64,000 nucleotides of DNA from Marinobacterium sp. LSUCC0821 (GTDB lineage Bacteria; Pseudomonadota; Gammaproteobacteria; Pseudomonadales; Balneatricaceae): contig NZ_CP051666.1 in the NCBI RefSeq assembly GCF_012848475.1, positions 1,015,501 through 1,079,500 on the forward strand. Reading direction: 5' to 3'. The notes beneath the pieces are model-generated. The model was not told the origin of the DNA. It was given only the letters and a program-made list of their open reading frames with translations, and made no database searches. Positions within the stretch are counted from its first letter, which is position 1. Every line of letters starts with the position of its first letter. Positions 12,529-50,968 of this stretch are shown here, one piece after another. Both the position numbers and the translations under genes were made by a program.

Positions 12529-13695
12529 TTAGTTGCCTCCTGCTGCTTTAACTGCTTGCTGTGCAGCGTCAGTCAGACTGGTTGCCGCGATGATATCCAA
12601 ACCAGATTCAGATAGCAGTTTAGAGCCGAGGTCAGCGTTGTTACCTTCAAGACGAACAACAACAGGTACACTTACACCCACTTCTTTAACAGCGCCGATG
12701 ATACCTTCTGCGATAAGGTCACAACGAACGATACCACCGAAGATGTTTACAAGAACTGCTTTAACTTTGTCATCTTCTAGGATGATCTTGAACGCTTCAG
12801 TTACGCGCTCTTTAGTCGCGCCGCCACCAACGTCAAGGAAGTTAGCTGGGAAACCACCGTGAAGAGAAACGATGTCCATAGTACCCATTGCAAGGCCAGC
12901 ACCGTTAACCATACAGCCGATGTTACCAGTGAGTGCAACGTAGTTAAGATCCCACTCAGCCGCACGTGCTTCACGAGCGTCTTCCTGTGATGGATCTTCC
13001 ATCGCCTGGATGTCTTTGTGACGGTATACAGAGTTACCATCGATAACGATTTTCGCATCTAGACAGTGAAGGTTGCCTGCATCAGTGATTACTAGAGGGT
13101 TGATCTCTAGAAGTGCTAGGTCTTTCTCTTCGAACATTTTCGCAAGACCCATGAAGATGCTTACGAACTGTTTGATCTGGTCACCCTGAAGACCAAGCTG
13201 GAACGCAAGTTCACGGCCCTGGTATGGCTGAGCACCAGTTAGCGGATCGATAGTCGCTTTAAGAATCTTCTCTGGAGTTTCGTGCGCAACTTTCTCAATC
13301 TCAACACCACCTTCAGTTGACGCCATGAAAACAATACGGCGTGAAGAGCGGTCTACAACTGCACCAAGATACAGTTCGTTTGCGATGTCTGTGCAAGTCT
13401 CTACAAGAATCTTAGAAACTGGCTGACCGTTCGCGTCAGTCTGGTAAGTTACAAGGTTTTTACCCAACCAGTTAGCTGCAAATGCCTGCGCTTCTGCTGG
13501 AGAGTCTACCAATTTCACACCGCCCGCTTTACCGCGGCCACCAGCGTGTACCTGTGCTTTAACAACCCACTTGTCGCCGCCAATTTTTTTGGCTGCTTCA
13601 GCGGCTGCTTCCGGCGTATCGACTGCAATGCCCTGAGACACTGGCAGACCGTACTGTGCAAACAGCTGCTTGCCCTGATACTCGTGAAGATTCAT
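12529..13695 (-). CDS. sucC: succinyl-CoA synthetase, beta subunit
   Basis: Nucleotide- and succinate-binding subunit, 388 residues, ATP-grasp fold. It starts [16 protein letters not shown], contains [17 protein letters not shown] in the ATP-grasp region, and LEINPLVIT and [11 protein letters not shown] in the C-terminal ligase domain. It is 2 nt upstream of sucD. The 107-nt gap to lpd contains no clear terminator, so transcription from sucA probably continues. Confidence 0.97.
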
Positions 13696-13802
13696 TCTTT
13701 AATCCGTTACTTAGTCGGTTATACGAACATGGGGGTCACCCCATGCAACGTGCAGTAAAAGGTGCTAACGAGCTTGTGGCTCGCCGCACCTAGTTACAGC
13801 GA

Positions 13803-15242
<1,440 letters not shown>

Positions 15243-36089: not shown

Positions 36090-37460
36090 ATGTCTAAGCC
36101 AATCCACGCATCTGATCTACAGCATTTCCAAGCCCCAAAAGGCTGGATAAACGATCCTAATGGATTGGTCTATTGCAATGAAACCTATCACCTCTTCTAC
36201 CAGCATCATCCTGATGGGATGACCTGGGGGCCGATGCATTGGGGGCATGCTACTTCAAAAGATCTAGAAACCTGGTCTCATAAACCGATCACTCTAGTTC
36301 CAGACGAGCTTGGCGCATGCTTTTCTGGTAGTGCGGTTGTTGATTGGAAAGATAGTTCAGGCCTATTTAAAGGCAAATCAGGCCTAGTTGCTTTCTATAC
36401 TGTGCATCGCGAGTTAGATGGTTTTGATCGCGGTTACATTCAGGATCAGTGCATTGCATATTCAAGTGATGGTGGTGAGAGCTGGACTAAATACGAAAAT
36501 AACCCGGTTCTTCTTAATCCAGGATTTTCTGATTTTCGCGATCCTAAGGTCTTTTGGCATGAAGAGAGTCAGCACTGGATTATGTGTTTGGCAACACGTC
36601 AAAGCATTAGTTTTTATAGATCTAAAAACCTGACCAAATGGCAATTTTGTTCTGAGTTTGGTGAGGGGCAAGGTGCACATGAGTGGCACCCGTGGGAGTG
36701 CCCTGACCTATTTAAACTAACTTCCGAATCAGGTGAATCTGCTTGGGTACTCATTGTTGGCATCGGCATGAGCCCAGATGTTCATTTTGGCTCATACACA
36801 CAATATTTTGTGGGTAGTTTTGATGGTAAAACTTTCACTAATGCGAATAACCCCGAGACAATTCTCTATCTAGATGAGGGGCGTGATTACTACGCTACTC
36901 AAAGCTGGTCCGACGCCCCCAATGGTGCGCGACTTGGCATCTCTTGGATGAATAACTGGCGATATGCAAACGAGATACCTGCCGTGATTCGTCGCGGTCA
37001 GATGGGGATCCCACGCTCATTTAAACTGGTTAGTTGTGATGAGGGATTACGAGTTGCGCAAAGTTTCGCACCTGAGATTGCTTTGGATCGTCTACTTGAA
37101 GAGGAACTTAATGATCAGGAGTTTCTGACTCTAGATACTGCAACAAATGAGCACGGTAAAGCGACCATCAATTTTGCAGTGCACAGTGTTGTTGAGCTTC
37201 GTTTTGCTAGTGCGACCGATCAGATCAATATCGCACGTACCGAGACCGGTTTTACTATTCAGATGGTTCGTATCAGTGATTCAAGTGACTTGCTGTTTAA
37301 AGAGAACTTCTCTCACGACTACACACGTTCGTTTGCTTACTCCTCTTCTGAAATAACCATTGAGTGGTTGGTGACTCCTTTTGGTGTGGAGCTTCTATTG
37401 GCTGATGGGTTGGTGAGTGTAACGCAGCTGTTTGAGACTGCTGGACTCTCTGCCGACTGA
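36090..37460 (+). CDS. GH32 beta-fructofuranosidase (sucrose hydrolase)
   Basis: Cytoplasmic invertase-type enzyme, 456 residues, no signal peptide. The nucleophile Asp22 is in WINDPNG, the stabiliser Asp151 in FRDPK, and the acid/base Glu203 in WECPDLF. It has a five-blade propeller followed by a short beta-sandwich end. The open frame reaches back to 36024, but that would translate the operator at 36036, so the ATG at 36090 is preferred despite a weak binding site. It probably splits imported sucrose or short fructans. The TGA stop lies inside a dispersed repeat (from 37457), so the C-terminus may have been reshaped. Confidence 0.9.
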   Translation: MSKPIHASDLQHFQAPKGWINDPNGLVYCNETYHLFYQHHPDGMTWGPMHWGHATSKDLETWSHKPITLVPDELGACFSGSAVVDWKDSSGLFKGKSGLVAFYTVHRELDGFDRGYIQDQCIAYSSDGGESWTKYENNPVLLNPGFSDFRDPKVFWHEESQHWIMCLATRQSISFYRSKNLTKWQFCSEFGEGQGAHEWHPWECPDLFKLTSESGESAWVLIVGIGMSPDVHFGSYTQYFVGSFDGKTFTNANNPETILYLDEGRDYYATQSWSDAPNGARLGISWMNNWRYANEIPAVIRRGQMGIPRSFKLVSCDEGLRVAQSFAPEIALDRLLEEELNDQEFLTLDTATNEHGKATINFAVHSVVELRFASATDQINIARTETGFTIQMVRISDSSDLLFKENFSHDYTRSFAYSSSEITIEWLVTPFGVELLLADGLVSVTQLFETAGLSAD

Positions 37461-44006: not shown

Positions 44007-47000
44007 ATGATAAGCAAGGATGTGCGCGTGCGCGATTACAAAGCGATAGAAGCTCAACTAAAACAACTACTTGAAGAACGCATTTTGATGCTCGATGGTG
44101 CCATGGGTACTATGATTCAAGGCTACAAGTTAGAAGAGGCTGACTACCGTGGCACGCGCTTTGCTGACTGGCATTGCGATGTTAAAGGCAACAACGACCT
44201 GCTAGTGCTAACCCAGCCGCAGATTATTGAAGAGATCCACTACAAGTACCTTCTAGCGGGTGCTGACATTATCGAGACCAACTCATTTAACGCCACCACT
44301 ATCGCAATGGCTGACTATGAGATGGAAGAACTCAACCGTGAGATCAACGTAGAGGCTGCACGCGTTGCACGTCGTGCCGTCGATCGCATGAACGCAGAGA
44401 CGCCAGACCGTCCTCGTTTTGTTGCCGGTGTCCTTGGCCCAACAAACCGCACAGCGACAATCTCTCCTGATGTAAACGATCCAGGTTTCCGCAATGTCAC
44501 TTTCGATCAGTTGGTAGTAGCTTATACAGAGTCTATCGACGGTCTTGTTGAGGGTGGCTCAGACATCATTTTGATTGAGACCATCTTCGATACCCTAAAC
44601 GCCAAAGCAGCTGTATTTGCTTGTGAGCAGTACTTCGACGATCACGGTTTCCGTCTTCCTGTGATGATCAGCGGAACCATTACTGACGCCTCGGGCCGTA
44701 CCCTTTCAGGCCAGACAACTGAAGCCTTCTACAACTCGTTACGCCACGCTAAACCACTCTCAATTGGCCTTAACTGTGCATTGGGGCCGAAAGAGCTTCG
44801 CCAGTACGTAGAGGAGCTTTCGCGTATCTCCGACACCTATGTATCGGTTCACCCTAACGCTGGTCTACCAAATGCCTTCGGTGAATATGATGAAACCGCA
44901 CAGCAGATGCGCGATGAGATTGCCGACTGGGCTAAAGATGGTTTTGTAAATATTGTGGGTGGCTGTTGTGGCACCACGCCTGAGCACATCCGCGTGATTC
45001 GTGAAGGTGTGATTAAACAATCACCTCGCAAGATTCCTGAAATCGCAATTGAGTGTCGTTTAGCCGGTCTTGAACCACTGACTATTGGCCCTGAAACGTT
45101 ATTTGTGAACGTGGGTGAGCGTACTAACGTTACCGGTTCTGCAAAATTCCGTCGTCTCATTAAAGAGGGCGACTACGAGACCGCACTTGAAGTAGCGCGT
45201 CAGCAGGTTGAGAGCGGTGCCCAGATCATCGATATCAACATGGATGAGGGTATGCTCGATGCGGAAGCGGCAATGTGCCGTTTCTTAAACCTGATTGCTT
45301 CAGAGCCAGATATCTCTCGAGTGCCTATTATGATCGACTCTTCAAAATGGGAGATCATTGAAGAGGGTCTAAAACGAATTCAAGGTAAGGGCGTTGTTAA
45401 CTCAATTAGCCTCAAAGAGGGCGAAGAGAAGTTTATCGCTCAGGCAAAACTGGTTAGACGTTACGGTGCTGCTGTTGTGGTTATGGCCTTCGATGAAGTG
45501 GGCCAGGCAGATACCTATGAACGAAAGATTGAGATCTGTGAACGCTCGTACCGCGTCCTGGTCGATAAAGTGGGCTTCCCTCCAGAAGATATTATTTTCG
45601 ATCCAAACATCTTCGCTATCGCCACCGGCATCGAAGAGCACGACAACTACGCCGTCGACTTCATAGAAGCGACAGCATGGATCAAGCGCAATCTGCCACA
45701 CGCCATGATCTCTGGCGGGGTTTCTAACGTCTCATTCTCTTTCCGTGGTAACGACAAAGTTCGTGAAGCAATCCACTGTGTATTCCTGTACCACGCCATT
45801 AAAAACGGTATGGATATGGGTATCGTCAACGCGGGTCAACTTGCTATCTATTATGACCTCCCAGAAGCACTTCGAAAGCACGTTGAAGATATCGTCTTGA
45901 ACCGTCGTGAAGATGGTACAGAGCGCATGCTTGAACATGCAGAGCAGTACCGCGGCGATGCAGCAATGCAGGCAGCAGGTGCTGACCTTGCGTGGCGCGA
46001 ACTCCCAGTTGAAGAGCGCCTTTCACATGCGTTAGTCAAAGGTATCACCGACTACATCGATGAAGATACGGAAGAGTGTCGTAAGCTCTACCCTCGCCCA
46101 CTTCTAGTTATTGAAGGGCCGTTGATGAGCGGTATGGGAATTGTCGGCGACCTATTTGGCGCCGGTAAGATGTTCCTGCCACAGGTTGTTAAGTCTGCGC
46201 GTGTAATGAAGAAAGCGGTAGCCTACCTCATGCCATTTATCGAGGCTGAAAAAGAGGGTAGCGAGTCGAGCTCAGCCGGCAAAGTGATCATGGCAACCGT
46301 AAAGGGTGACGTGCACGATATCGGTAAAAACATCGTAGGCGTAGTACTGCAATGTAACAACTTCGAAATCGTCGATCTTGGCGTTATGGTGCCAGCTGAG
46401 ACCATTCTTAGAACGGCGCGCGAACAGAACGCGGACATCATCGGTCTATCGGGCCTCATTACTCCATCACTTGATGAGATGGTACACGTTGCAAAAGAGA
46501 TGCAGCGCCAAGGTTTCGATATCCCACTTATGATCGGTGGCGCAACCACATCTAAAGCGCACACTGCCGTGAAGATTGAGCCCTGCTACAAGAACAACCT
46601 AGTGGTGCATGTCACCAACGCCTCACGATCTGTAGGTGTAGCCTCTGCCCTACTCTCTAAAGAGCGCCACCAAGCCTTTGTGGATGAGACTCGTACAGAG
46701 TACGAAGCAGTGCGTGAGCGCCACCATGCACGTCAGAACGAGCAGCGCCGCGTCAATATCGATGCTGCACGCGCCAATTCTGAACCGGTTAATTGGGAAG
46801 GCTACGTTCCACCAGTCCCAAAAGAGCCTGGCGTGCATGTTCTAAAAGAGATCCCACTTGAGTCACTGGTTGATTACATCGACTGGACACCTTTCTTCCA
46901 ATCTTGGGAGCTTGCTGGAAAATACCCACGCATTTTGACTGATGAGGTCGTAGGCGAACAGGCAACGAAACTCTTTGCCGATGCCAAGGTGATGCTTGCA

Positions 47001-47738
47001 GATATTATCGCCAACAAGCGACTTGAAGCGCGAGCTGTGGTGGGTCTATTCCCTGCTAACCGTGTAGGGGACGACGTTGAACTCTATACTGACGAGGCAC
47101 GCCATACACCACTGATGACAGTTCACCACCTGCGCCAACAGACTCAGAAGATAGAGGGCAAATACAACCACTGTCTTTCTGATTATGTCGCTAACAAAGA
47201 TAGCAATACCGCAGACTACCTAGGTGCCTTTGCCGTTACTGCAGGTATAGGTGTTGATGAGATGGTGGCTGAGTTTGAAAAGGACCACGACGACTACCAG
47301 TCAATTATGGTGAAAGCACTTGCAGACCGCTTAGCAGAAGCACTTGCTGAGAAGATGCACGCCGATGTGCGTCGCAACTACTGGGGTTACGCATCAGATG
47401 AGAGCCTCGATAACGAAGCACTTATTCGCGAAGAGTACGTCGGCATCCGCCCTGCACCTGGCTACCCTGCTTGCCCAGACCATACCGAGAAGGGCCTGTT
47501 ATGGGAGCTATTGGATGTCGAGGCAAATATCGGCATGACCCTTACCGACAGCTACGCAATGCTGCCAACAGCAGCGGTTAGCGGTTGGTACTTTAGCCAT
47601 CCAGAAGCTAAGTACTTTGGTGTCGCTAAAATCAGCGAAGATCAGGTCGAAGATTACGCCCACCGCAAAGGGATGTCGTTATCTGAAGCCGAGCGTTGGT
47701 TGGCGCCAAACCTTGGGTATGAGCCGGAGTCGCTCTGA
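44007..47738 (+). CDS. metH: cobalamin-dependent methionine synthase
   Basis: Transfers the methyl group of methyltetrahydrofolate to homocysteine via B12. The 1243 residues contain all four modules: a homocysteine domain (about 20-345) with zinc ligands Cys257, Cys320 and Cys321, and a folate domain (about 365-620, starting after [12 protein letters not shown]). The B12 domain has the lower-ligand His770 in DVHDIGKN and [13 protein letters not shown]. The activation domain has [15 protein letters not shown]. No cobalamin riboswitch was recognised in the 229-nt upstream region. Monocistronic. Confidence 0.97.
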
Positions 47739-47770: not shown

Positions 47771-48382
47771 GACAGGCTGAAGGCCTGTCATCGGTCTTTG
47801 AGTTAAAACTAGATAAGATGCGTTCTACTCGCCTAAAGGCGACCAGCCTTACTTTTCCCTTGTCGGAAAAGTAAGCAAAAGGACACCCCGCTCCTTCGGC
47901 CTTCGGCACACTGCGCGCGATACTCTTTTTCTGAAGCTTATCAGGACCGCACAAGGTCGGCATCCTGCCTCCGTTGTGCTCTTCGGCCGTCCATGGCCTC
48001 AGCCTGACAAGCCCTTAACCGAAAAAGAGCACCGTGCTCGTTCTCAGTCGGACGGGGAACCGGGGTGCCTAATTCGAATCTCGTGCCAGCCGTCCACGTC
48101 CGATCGAGAGTGAGTACGATGGTTTTTCACGATTATGAGTTCAATCGGCTGAGGCCCGGATGGCCGAAGTCTGCAACGGAGGCAGGAGCCGACTTTGCAG
48201 TGTCCTATTGGACTTCAGTGAAAAATCATTGAACGGAGCGTGCCGCAGGCCGAGTGAGCGTGGTCAGTTTTTGGGTACTTTTTGCTGACCAAAAAGTAGC
48301 AATGGCCAGCCTTTAGGCTGGGTATTCGCTTTTGATTTTGATCTGGCTTTTAACTAAACCTCAGGTGTCTGGCTTTAGCCTG
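47771..48382. repeat. long imperfect inverted repeat, about 610 bp
   Basis: The metH-icd interval folds back on itself around a TTCGAA at 48073-48078. Matched pairs moving outward: GGCCTCAGCC (47995-48004) with GGCTGAGGCC (48147-48156); TCCTGCCTCCGTTG (47963-47976) with its exact complement (48174-48187); GCCTAAAGGC (47831-47840) with GCCTTTAGGC (48309-48318); CAGGCT (47773-47778) with AGCCTG (48377-48382). All have midpoints between 48,074 and 48,078, so there are few net indels. Pairing between these blocks is partial. There is no transposase and no convincing ORF. Single copy in this window. Confidence 0.85.
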
Positions 48383-48453
48383 AGATAGACTCTCTTCGCG
48401 TTCTACAGTTAACAGCGAATGAAAGGCTTAAGGCCTGTCACCGGAGCTTCTTG

Positions 48454-48518
48454 GTAGGAGCTAGCTCGAAGAGCGACGCGATTTAATTATTCGCTTCGCC
48501 CTGCGGGCTAGCTCCTAC
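48454..48518. repeat. GTAGGAGCTAGC inverted repeat (REP-like)
   Basis: Perfect 12-bp arms GTAGGAGCTAGC (48454-48465) and GCTAGCTCCTAC (48507-48518) with inner CGAAGAGCGACGCG-type sequence. It resembles the GTAGGAGC REP elements common in gammaproteobacteria and lies between the long inverted repeat and the icd leader. Confidence 0.8.
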
Positions 48519-48745: not shown

Positions 48746-50968
48746 ATGGCTAAAAAACCAAGTACTATCGTCTACACCCTTACAGACGAAGCACCGGCGC
48801 TTGCGACCGCATCCTTCCTGCCAATTATTCGTAAATTTGCTAAATCAGCTGACATCAATGTTGAGCTATGTGATATCTCTCTTGCAGGGCGTATCCTTTC
48901 TTCGTTCCCAGAGTACCTGAACGATCAACAGAAAGTTGAAGACGGCCTTGCTCAGCTAGGCGATATGACAGCTGATCCAAACCTTAACCTGATCAAACTG
49001 CCAAACATCTCTGCATCTGTACCGCAGTTGAAAGCAGCGATTGCTGAACTTCAGGCTCAGGGTTACCACATTCCAGATTTCCCAGATGCTGCACGCAACG
49101 ATAAAGAGCAAGAGATCCGTGATCGCTACTCTAAAATCCTTGGTTCTGCTGTTAACCCTGTTCTACGTCAGGGCAACTCAGACCGTCGCGCACCAGCAGC
49201 TGTAAAAGCTTTCGCTCGCAAACACCCACATAGCATGGGTCAGTGGAGCAAAGCGTCACGTACTCACGCTGACTACATGAACGGCGGCGACTTCTTCTCT
49301 AGTGAACAGGCTGTCACTATGGAGAAAGATACTAAAGTACGCATCGAATTCATCTGCGGCGATGGCAACATCACTGTTAAGAAAGAGCTAAGCCTTCTTA
49401 AAGGTGAAGTACTTGATGGCATGTTCATGAGTGCCAAAGCGCTTCGTAACTTCTTCGAAGAGACTCTTCAGGACTGTAAAGAGTCTGGCGTAATGTGGTC
49501 TCTACACGTTAAAGCGACGATGATGAAGGTTTCACACCCTATCGTTTTCGGTCACGCGGTAACCGTGTTCTACAAAGAGGTTTGGGACAAGTGGGGCGAG
49601 AAGTTCCAAGAGATCGGTGTTAACCCTAACAACGGTCTAAACAGCGTTTACGAAAAGATCGCTGAGCTACCAAACTCTGTGCGCGAAGAGATCCTTCACG
49701 ACATCCACGAAGCAGCTATGCACCGTCCAGAGATGGCGATGGTTGATTCGGTTAAAGGCATCACTAACCTTCACATCCCATCTGACGTAATCGTTGACGC
49801 ATCTATGCCTGCAATGATCCGTAACTCAGGCAAGATGTGGGGCCAGGATGGTAAAGCTAAAGATACTAAAGCAGTAATGCCAGAAAGTACTTACGCTCGC
49901 ATCTACCAAGAGATGATCAACTTCTGTAAAACTCACGGCGCATTCGATCCAACTACTATGGGTACAGTACCTAACGTAGGTCTAATGGCGATGAAAGCTG
50001 AAGAGTACGGTTCGCACGATAAGACTTTCGAGATGACTGAAGATGGCATCATGCGCGTTGTTGCTGAAGACGGCACAGTGCTAATGGGTCACAAAGTCGA
50101 GAAAGGCGACATCTGGCGCGCATGTCAGACTAAAGATGCTGCGATCCGCGACTGGGTTAAACTAGCCGTGACACGTGCTCGTCAGTCTAACACTCCTGCT
50201 ATCTTCTGGTTGGATGCAGAGCGTGCACACGATCGTGAACTTCGTAAGAAAGTTGAGCTTTATCTACAAGAGCATGACACTGAAGGTCTAGATCTTCGAA
50301 TCATGTCTTACGTACGCGCTATGCGCTCTACTTGTGAGCGCCTAATCCGTGGCCTAGATACTATCTCTGTAACGGGTAACGTTCTACGTGACTACCTAAC
50401 TGACCTATTCCCAATCATGGAACTGGGTACATCTGCGAAGATGCTATCTGTAGTACCAATGCTTGCGGGCGGTGGTATGTACGAAACAGGTGCAGGCGGT
50501 TCAGCACCTAAACACGTACAGCAGGTACTTGAAGAGAACCACCTACGTTGGGACTCTCTAGGTGAATTCCTAGCACTTGCAGTATCTCTAGAAGAGCTCG
50601 GCATCAAAGAGAACAAACCACGCGCTAAAGTGCTAGCTGAAACTCTAGATCGCGCTACTGGCCTACTACTTGATAAAGGTAAATCACCTTCACGTCGTAC
50701 TGGCGAACTAGATAACCGTGGCAGCCACTTCTACTTGGCTCTTTACTGGGCTCAGCAGATTGTTGACCAGACTGAAGATGCTGAACTAGCTAAACTATTC
50801 GCACCAGTTGCTGAAGCGTTGACTAGCGGTGAAGCGAAGATCCTTGAAGAGCTTTCAGCAGTTCAAGGTTCACCTGCAGATATCCAGGGCTACTACCACG
50901 CACCGATGGAACTTGTTGAAAAAGTGATGCGCCCAAGTGCAACACTGAACGCAGTGATCGATGCTTAA
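48746..50968 (+). CDS. icd: isocitrate dehydrogenase, monomeric NADP-dependent
   Basis: Oxidises isocitrate to 2-oxoglutarate, supplying NADPH. The 740 residues and the sequence ([20 protein letters not shown] at the start, [49 protein letters not shown]) are those of the monomeric type (IDH-II), not the dimeric E. coli Icd. GGGG lies 7 nt before the ATG. It is followed by a strong terminator and preceded by a possible leader peptide. Confidence 0.97.

Follow-up and report, generated by a model that had tools for sequence, protein, structure and literature searches.

The interval between metH and icd in Marinobacterium sp. LSUCC0821 carries a 600-base palindrome that is two differing, back-to-back copies of a scattered repeat. 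Each half is a conserved unit with its own secondary structure. From its sequence features, we consider it probable, although well short of certain, that this element is a dispersed and likely mobile 3′-end repeat that presents paired CsrA sites resembling those of the TwoAYGGAY motif, where CsrA binding, transcription and mobility are all inferred. Coordinates given without a locus name refer to the window, which is the entire 64,000-nucleotide stretch analyzed (positions 1,015,501 to 1,079,500 of contig NZ_CP051666.1, assembly GCF_012848475.1); its genome is called G000.

The initial annotation described nucleotides 47771 through 48382 as an inverted repeat of roughly 610 bp whose halves are diverged reverse complements around a TTCGAA sequence, and this symmetry is evident (center at 48073-48078). 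When the interval is compared with itself on opposite strands, the match is 68% over 47831-48318 (E 1.5e-34). Comparison of the fold with shuffled sequence, as the annotation had proposed, gives -310.6 kcal/mol for the plus strand versus -201.3 +/- 5.5 kcal/mol for dinucleotide shuffles (z -19.8), and the minus strand also exceeds its shuffles (z -14.1). The claimed extent is too large, because matches to other copies place the element at approximately 47814-48353. The outermost pair of blocks that had been assigned to it (47773/48377) lies outside the element, and is a pair of separate REP-like palindromes. These palindromes (GACAGGCTGAAGGCCTGTC and relatives) occur alone elsewhere (window position 37460 and loci L103, L106 and L109), and they likewise border the interval between metH and icd in Marinobacterium sp. 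xm-d-530 (L015), where the element is absent. Another REP-like palindrome (GTAGGAGCTAGC...GCTAGCTCCTAC) adjoins the element at 48454-48518, and it cuts into or shortens other copies (L097 15777-15845; L099 12002-12070). The TACTTTT/AAAAGTA sub-hairpins reported earlier are present, and correspond to the half unit's outer hairpins; two more telling hairpins with GGA loops had been overlooked. The features of the interval are listed below, with element boundaries that are approximate.

44007-47738: open reading frame called metH in the initial annotation, whose name is kept here
47771-47789, no strand: separate REP-like palindrome (former outer left block), found alone elsewhere
47814-48353, no strand: whole element, two inverted half units, left of type A and right of type B, from matches to copies
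47817-48079, minus strand: left half unit, type A, read center outward, from the half-unit alignment
47830-47841, minus strand: left outermost hairpin H1, from sequence (helix 9)
47849-47874, minus strand: left outer hairpin H2, TTACTTTTCC..GGAAAAGTAA (helix 8; 99.5% paired, with double changes in 6 of 10 pairs)
47886-48057, minus strand: left conserved RNA-like core from the covariance models R1/R2, 190.8 bits with R1
47959-47969, minus strand: left hairpin B, GGC[AGGAU]GCC, from fold and alignment
47985-47998, minus strand: left hairpin A, GGCC[AUGGAC]GGCC, from fold and alignment
48072-48079, no strand: center ATTCGAAT, the inner end of both half units, common to most halves
48072-48343, plus strand: right half unit, type B, read center outward, from the half-unit alignment; a solo copy in xm-d-530 shares 97% identity with it
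48094-48263, plus strand: right conserved RNA-like core, 183.5 bits with R1
48153-48165, plus strand: right hairpin A, GGCC[CGGAU]GGCC, from alignment
48181-48190, plus strand: right hairpin B, GGC[AGGA]GCC, from alignment
48276-48298, plus strand: right outer hairpin H2, TACTTTTTGCTGACCAAAAAGTA, from the half-unit covariation count
48306-48321, plus strand: right outermost hairpin H1, from sequence (helix 9)
48360-48384, no strand: separate REP-like palindrome (former outer right block), likewise next to the L015 metH-icd interval, which has no copy
48746-50968: open reading frame called icd in the initial annotation; best relatives by translated search in Marinobacterium sp. xm-d-530 and an Oceanospirillaceae MAG

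A blastn search for further copies, which the annotation had likewise proposed, returned 42 matches at about 13 places in the same genome when the segment was used as the query. Three other genomes of the genus also contain copies, and blastn found none in the 36 other genera sampled. A covariance model (R1) identified 22 units in the window's genome. Reading the copies individually reveals that the recurring unit is the half, of about 265 nucleotides, which occurs alone or paired and also in direct tandem. Solo halves are present in genomes G003 and G002. Seven of the eight copies in G003 are single halves, most of them joined at the center to a short REP (GGCACTGTTGGAGCGGTCTTGAAAAGGCCGCGA), and most copies in the window's genome are inverted pairs, some of which are split by another REP. 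An exact signature (CACCCCGCTC..CTGCGC) searched across the class was found in this genome only, and a 12-mer (GACANGGAYGTC) compared with its reversed control across the order showed an excess in some genomes only, rather than a general one.

At an 80% identity threshold, the halves fall into four subtypes. A solo half located at another site in G003 matches the window's B-type half at 97% identity, whereas the genes flanking the elements share about 70-82% between these genomes, which suggests either recent spread or very strong constraint. At orthologous intergenic sites (L095/L108, L097/L105 and L099/L105), the subtype or form of the element differs between these two genomes, suggesting turnover or gene conversion at old sites. 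A compound site (L102 2800-2900; G000:C1 near 2343.3 kb) combines an A′-type half, GGGGTCTGACCC repeats and a second unit of another subtype (L102 2955-3115), the loop of which carries ACAGGGAUGU.

Each half unit has hairpins H1 and H2 in its outer part, along with a long, branched stem whose tips are hairpins A and B. In an alignment of 21 halves (A2), arranged from the center outward, 34 of the 62 pairs in the consensus structure have changed on both sides. For the named structure, 96.1% of cells are paired and 35 of 67 pairs are doubly changed, a score reached by none of 500 shuffles, and sliding the partners by one to three columns as a control reduces pairing to 38-48%. The strand read from the center outward has far more G-U than A-C cells (103:14; 23 versus 7 when counted by pair position), and it is the more stable strand in all 53 units compared, as well as in 37 of 40 held-out units. 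This bias and this stability difference are the expected marks of selection acting on an RNA that is read center outward.

The apical hairpins A and B carry GGA in their loops in every half that has the apical part, as evident from the alignment and folds. Their stems have been rewritten by compensating changes across subtypes, genera and families (for example GGCC/GGCC and UGAC/GUCA in hairpin A; GGC/GCC, GAC/GUC and GCCUGC/GCAGGC in hairpin B), while GGA is kept in both loops at a separation of about 27 nucleotides. The loops include ACAGGGAUGU, ACAUGGAUGU, CAUGGAUG, CAGGGACUG and CAGGAUG, and GUACAAGGAUGU, present in one unit, fits the CsrA SELEX consensus RUACARGGAUGU at every position. 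Type B departs from the ANGGA consensus in hairpin A (CCGGAUG), where the A is missing.

Some halves also carry optional modules of about 50 nucleotides, inserted at two fixed places, that contribute extra GGA hairpins (GCCAUGGAUGGC, UGCAGGAGCA). Halves with modules display four to five GGA loops on the RNA strand, compared with 0.5-0.9 in shuffles (0 of 60 reached this number), and none on the opposite strand; for individual halves without modules the number is only mildly above that of shuffles. We considered whether the module might be a free repeat, and within the genus it was found only inside these elements. In L163 (about 1515-1570), the two-hairpin module runs opposite to its unit, which suggests that modules can move or invert independently.

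The same architecture extends beyond the genus. A permissive R1 search of the family recovered units in three genomes of another genus, which keep both GGA hairpins on new stems (GGCAGGGACUGCC, GGGGACAUGGAUGUCCCC, GGCACAGGGACGUGCC, GGAACAGGAUGUUCC); when these are added, 95.9% of cells are paired and 37 of 52 pairs are doubly changed. With a second model (R2), every one of the seven genomes of the second genus yields 2-64 units, and a 37-genome sample of the order yields units in two further families (G036 and G040), with 34 genomes negative. Among 22 matches that are mostly from outside the genus, 93.0% of cells are paired and 46 of 52 pairs are doubly changed. We also examined 40 held-out units, none of which had been used in model building. 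Pairing is retained in 92.4% of their cells, with 35 of 52 pairs doubly changed, and a GGA loop is found in hairpin A of 40 of 40 and hairpin B of 39 of 40, spaced 27 or 28 nucleotides apart in all 39, and many of these loops agree with the CsrA SELEX site; these counts are supportive rather than fully independent, because the covariance model favors units that keep GGA. Relatives in G221 and G079 share the same base but have no GGA loops, and those in G221 also have H1 and H2. One relative in G221 adjoins a Guanidine-II riboswitch (L141 1291-1338, minus strand; 40.2 bits versus the Rfam gathering score of 32).

The initial annotation had offered two explanations for arms that remain in register over about 300 nucleotides, namely selection for a long folded structure or an old non-autonomous mobile element. 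The register itself is real. Selection of the arms to pair with one another as a giant hairpin RNA or cruciform has the strong fold of the whole interval in its favor, but a comparison of the arms does not support it. Arms of the same copy share a mean identity of 0.73 and form a predicted duplex of -258 kcal/mol, whereas arms drawn from different copies reach 0.77 and -313 kcal/mol. This lower complementarity within copies indicates that the arms do not coevolve, and the compensatory changes that the annotation had suggested seeking between the arms are confined to the interior of each half. All six complete dimers join unlike subtypes, although some of the six are related and the lack of like-with-like pairs is only suggestive, and units also occur alone or in direct tandem. 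We therefore regard selection for mutual pairing of the arms as very improbable; the arms are in register because each half is separately conserved.

The second explanation fares better, since the copies form a dispersed family located at different places in each genome, although no target-site duplication was found. In its plainest form, this reading holds that the element is a non-autonomous transposable element, MITE-like or REPIN-like, whose hairpins act as single-stranded DNA with GGA loops recognized by a transposase encoded elsewhere, such that CsrA is irrelevant. Sites occupied in one genome and copy-free in another, the near identity of B-type halves between genomes noted above, and the presence of a Y1/RAYT-type transposase in the genome are all consistent with it. 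However, there is no transposase in or beside the copies examined, the strong one-strand G-U bias fits RNA better than DNA, and the loops agree with the CsrA consensus at a fixed spacing. The sole Y1/RAYT-type transposase (148 amino acids; L152 1250-2100, G000:C1 near 1087.3 kb, outside the window) lies amid many copies of GGAACCTCCCCGAAGGGGYGGTGACC, and we rejected it as the spreading enzyme because its flanking repeats are different ones. The ends of the element resemble inverted GATCAAAAGC/GCTTTTGATC, and no clean empty site was found: the candidates at the xm-d-530 metH-icd interval, L107 and L098 all differ in other repeats or genes. Carriage by plasmids or phages was also considered and rejected, as blastn gave no match and the exact pattern had no match in viral contigs. 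On balance, a purely transposable element seems unlikely to us.

Gene order differs between G000 and G003 beside some elements. Segments 92-2248 and 2897-5781 of L109 match 12950-15112 and 12585-9732 of L100 in opposite orientations, as if a rearrangement breakpoint had occurred at an element.

The placement of the element among genes is uneven. Of 22 sites, 14 lie between convergent genes, eight between tandem genes and none between divergent genes, compared with 29 tandem, eight convergent and eight divergent pairs of open reading frames in the window; these counts are approximate, given that open reading frames were called mechanically and that some sites are orthologous between the two genomes. 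The clear solo halves in tandem contexts (L104a, L104b, L107 and L109a) are oriented with the RNA strand running the same way as the genes beside them in four of four cases. Both observations fit a role in 3′ regions that are reached by read-through. Such placement, together with the very stable fold, could also reflect a structured barrier at the ends of mRNAs between convergent genes, which protects the ends or is cut by RNase III and limits antisense read-through, with GGA being secondary. A barrier would require stems, but no invariant pair of GGA loops held at one spacing; solo halves and sites between tandem genes are frequent as well, and neither H1 nor H2 has the U-tract of a terminator. 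For these reasons we consider a simple 3′-end barrier improbable.

The reading that we prefer, in which each half offers paired sites for CsrA/RsmA, follows from the loop matches, the resemblance to TwoAYGGAY and the presence of one csrA in the window's genome. CsrA recognizes GGA in hairpin loops, with the SELEX consensus matched above, and CsrB carries repeats of the form CAGGA(U/A/C)G; the protein can bridge two sites 10-63 nucleotides apart, best above 18 nucleotides (PMC7652899). The elements present GGA apical loops on short hairpins, paired at a bridging distance. No Rfam family reaches its gathering score in the elements tested. The recurring match, on the right strand and at the right place, is TwoAYGGAY (RF01731), which belongs to the same Rfam clan as rsmX (CL00106) and for which CsrA binding has been proposed on motif grounds (PMC4333381). 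Several A-type units and one f2 unit match it weakly, at 25-28 bits (best 28.1), below the gathering threshold of 43. Like TwoAYGGAY, the half unit has G.A-flanked stems and two hairpins at the tip of one stem, with loops of the (A)YGGAY type (AUGGAC and AUGGAU in several subtypes, different GGA loops in the others). It differs in residing within a multi-copy, often inverted intergenic repeat, and in having the additional outer hairpins H1 and H2, for which we found no counterpart in descriptions of TwoAYGGAY.

Other known systems share some of these features. The sponge RNAs CsrB/CsrC and RsmX/Y/Z likewise repeat hairpins with GGA loops and CAGGA(U/A/C)G or ANGGA motifs, but they are encoded by sRNA genes at single loci, each with a promoter and terminator of its own, whereas here every half unit has at least two GGA loops and the units occupy up to dozens of loci. 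REP, BIME and REPIN sequences that are associated with RAYTs are also intergenic palindromic repeats behind genes that form inverted pairs and carry no gene of their own; however, their units measure 20-40 nucleotides rather than about 265, no GTAG-type foot was seen here, and the only RAYT-type gene of this genome is flanked by other repeats. Bacterial MITEs are similarly non-coding and dispersed, with inverted ends and mosaic copies. The present elements differ from MITEs in that neither a target-site duplication nor a parent transposon was found, and in that their internal structure is conserved by covariation.

If the CsrA interpretation is correct, then read-through from a neighboring gene would transcribe a half from the center outward, and hairpins A and B on that transcript would offer a CsrA/RsmA dimer a bivalent site of the kind known from CsrB/RsmZ and suggested for TwoAYGGAY RNAs. 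The copies would thus be dispersed CsrA sites, which could act in cis at the 3′ end of the transcript that carries them or jointly as a decoy pool. Inverted pairs would arise from the repeated placing of units side by side. A near-perfect palindrome of 600 bp is generally unstable, which may be why pairs of unlike subtypes are the ones that survive. In a read-through transcript of a full dimer, fold predictions favor pairing between the arms over local hairpins, which could conceal the GGA loops, and the choice between the two forms would depend on co-transcriptional folding.

CsrA/RsmA governs metabolism, biofilm formation and motility in many Gammaproteobacteria. The antagonists described for it are, to our knowledge, a handful of dedicated small RNAs, and our literature search, conducted mostly outside subscription journals, found no paper that joins CsrA sites with dispersed palindromic repeats. 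A broader proposal, which we advance tentatively and consider somewhat less likely than not, is that this mobile, dispersed family supplies genome-wide decoy or tether sites for CsrA at up to about 60 intergenic places, such that transcription of 3′ ends tunes the Csr/Rsm system. If true, a bivalent CsrA-type site copied to dozens of gene ends would tie selfish repeats to global post-transcriptional control, and would give long palindromic repeats between genes, which otherwise lack an explanation, a possible function. The repeat would also make the proposal that TwoAYGGAY RNAs bind CsrA testable in gammaproteobacteria outside the human gut.
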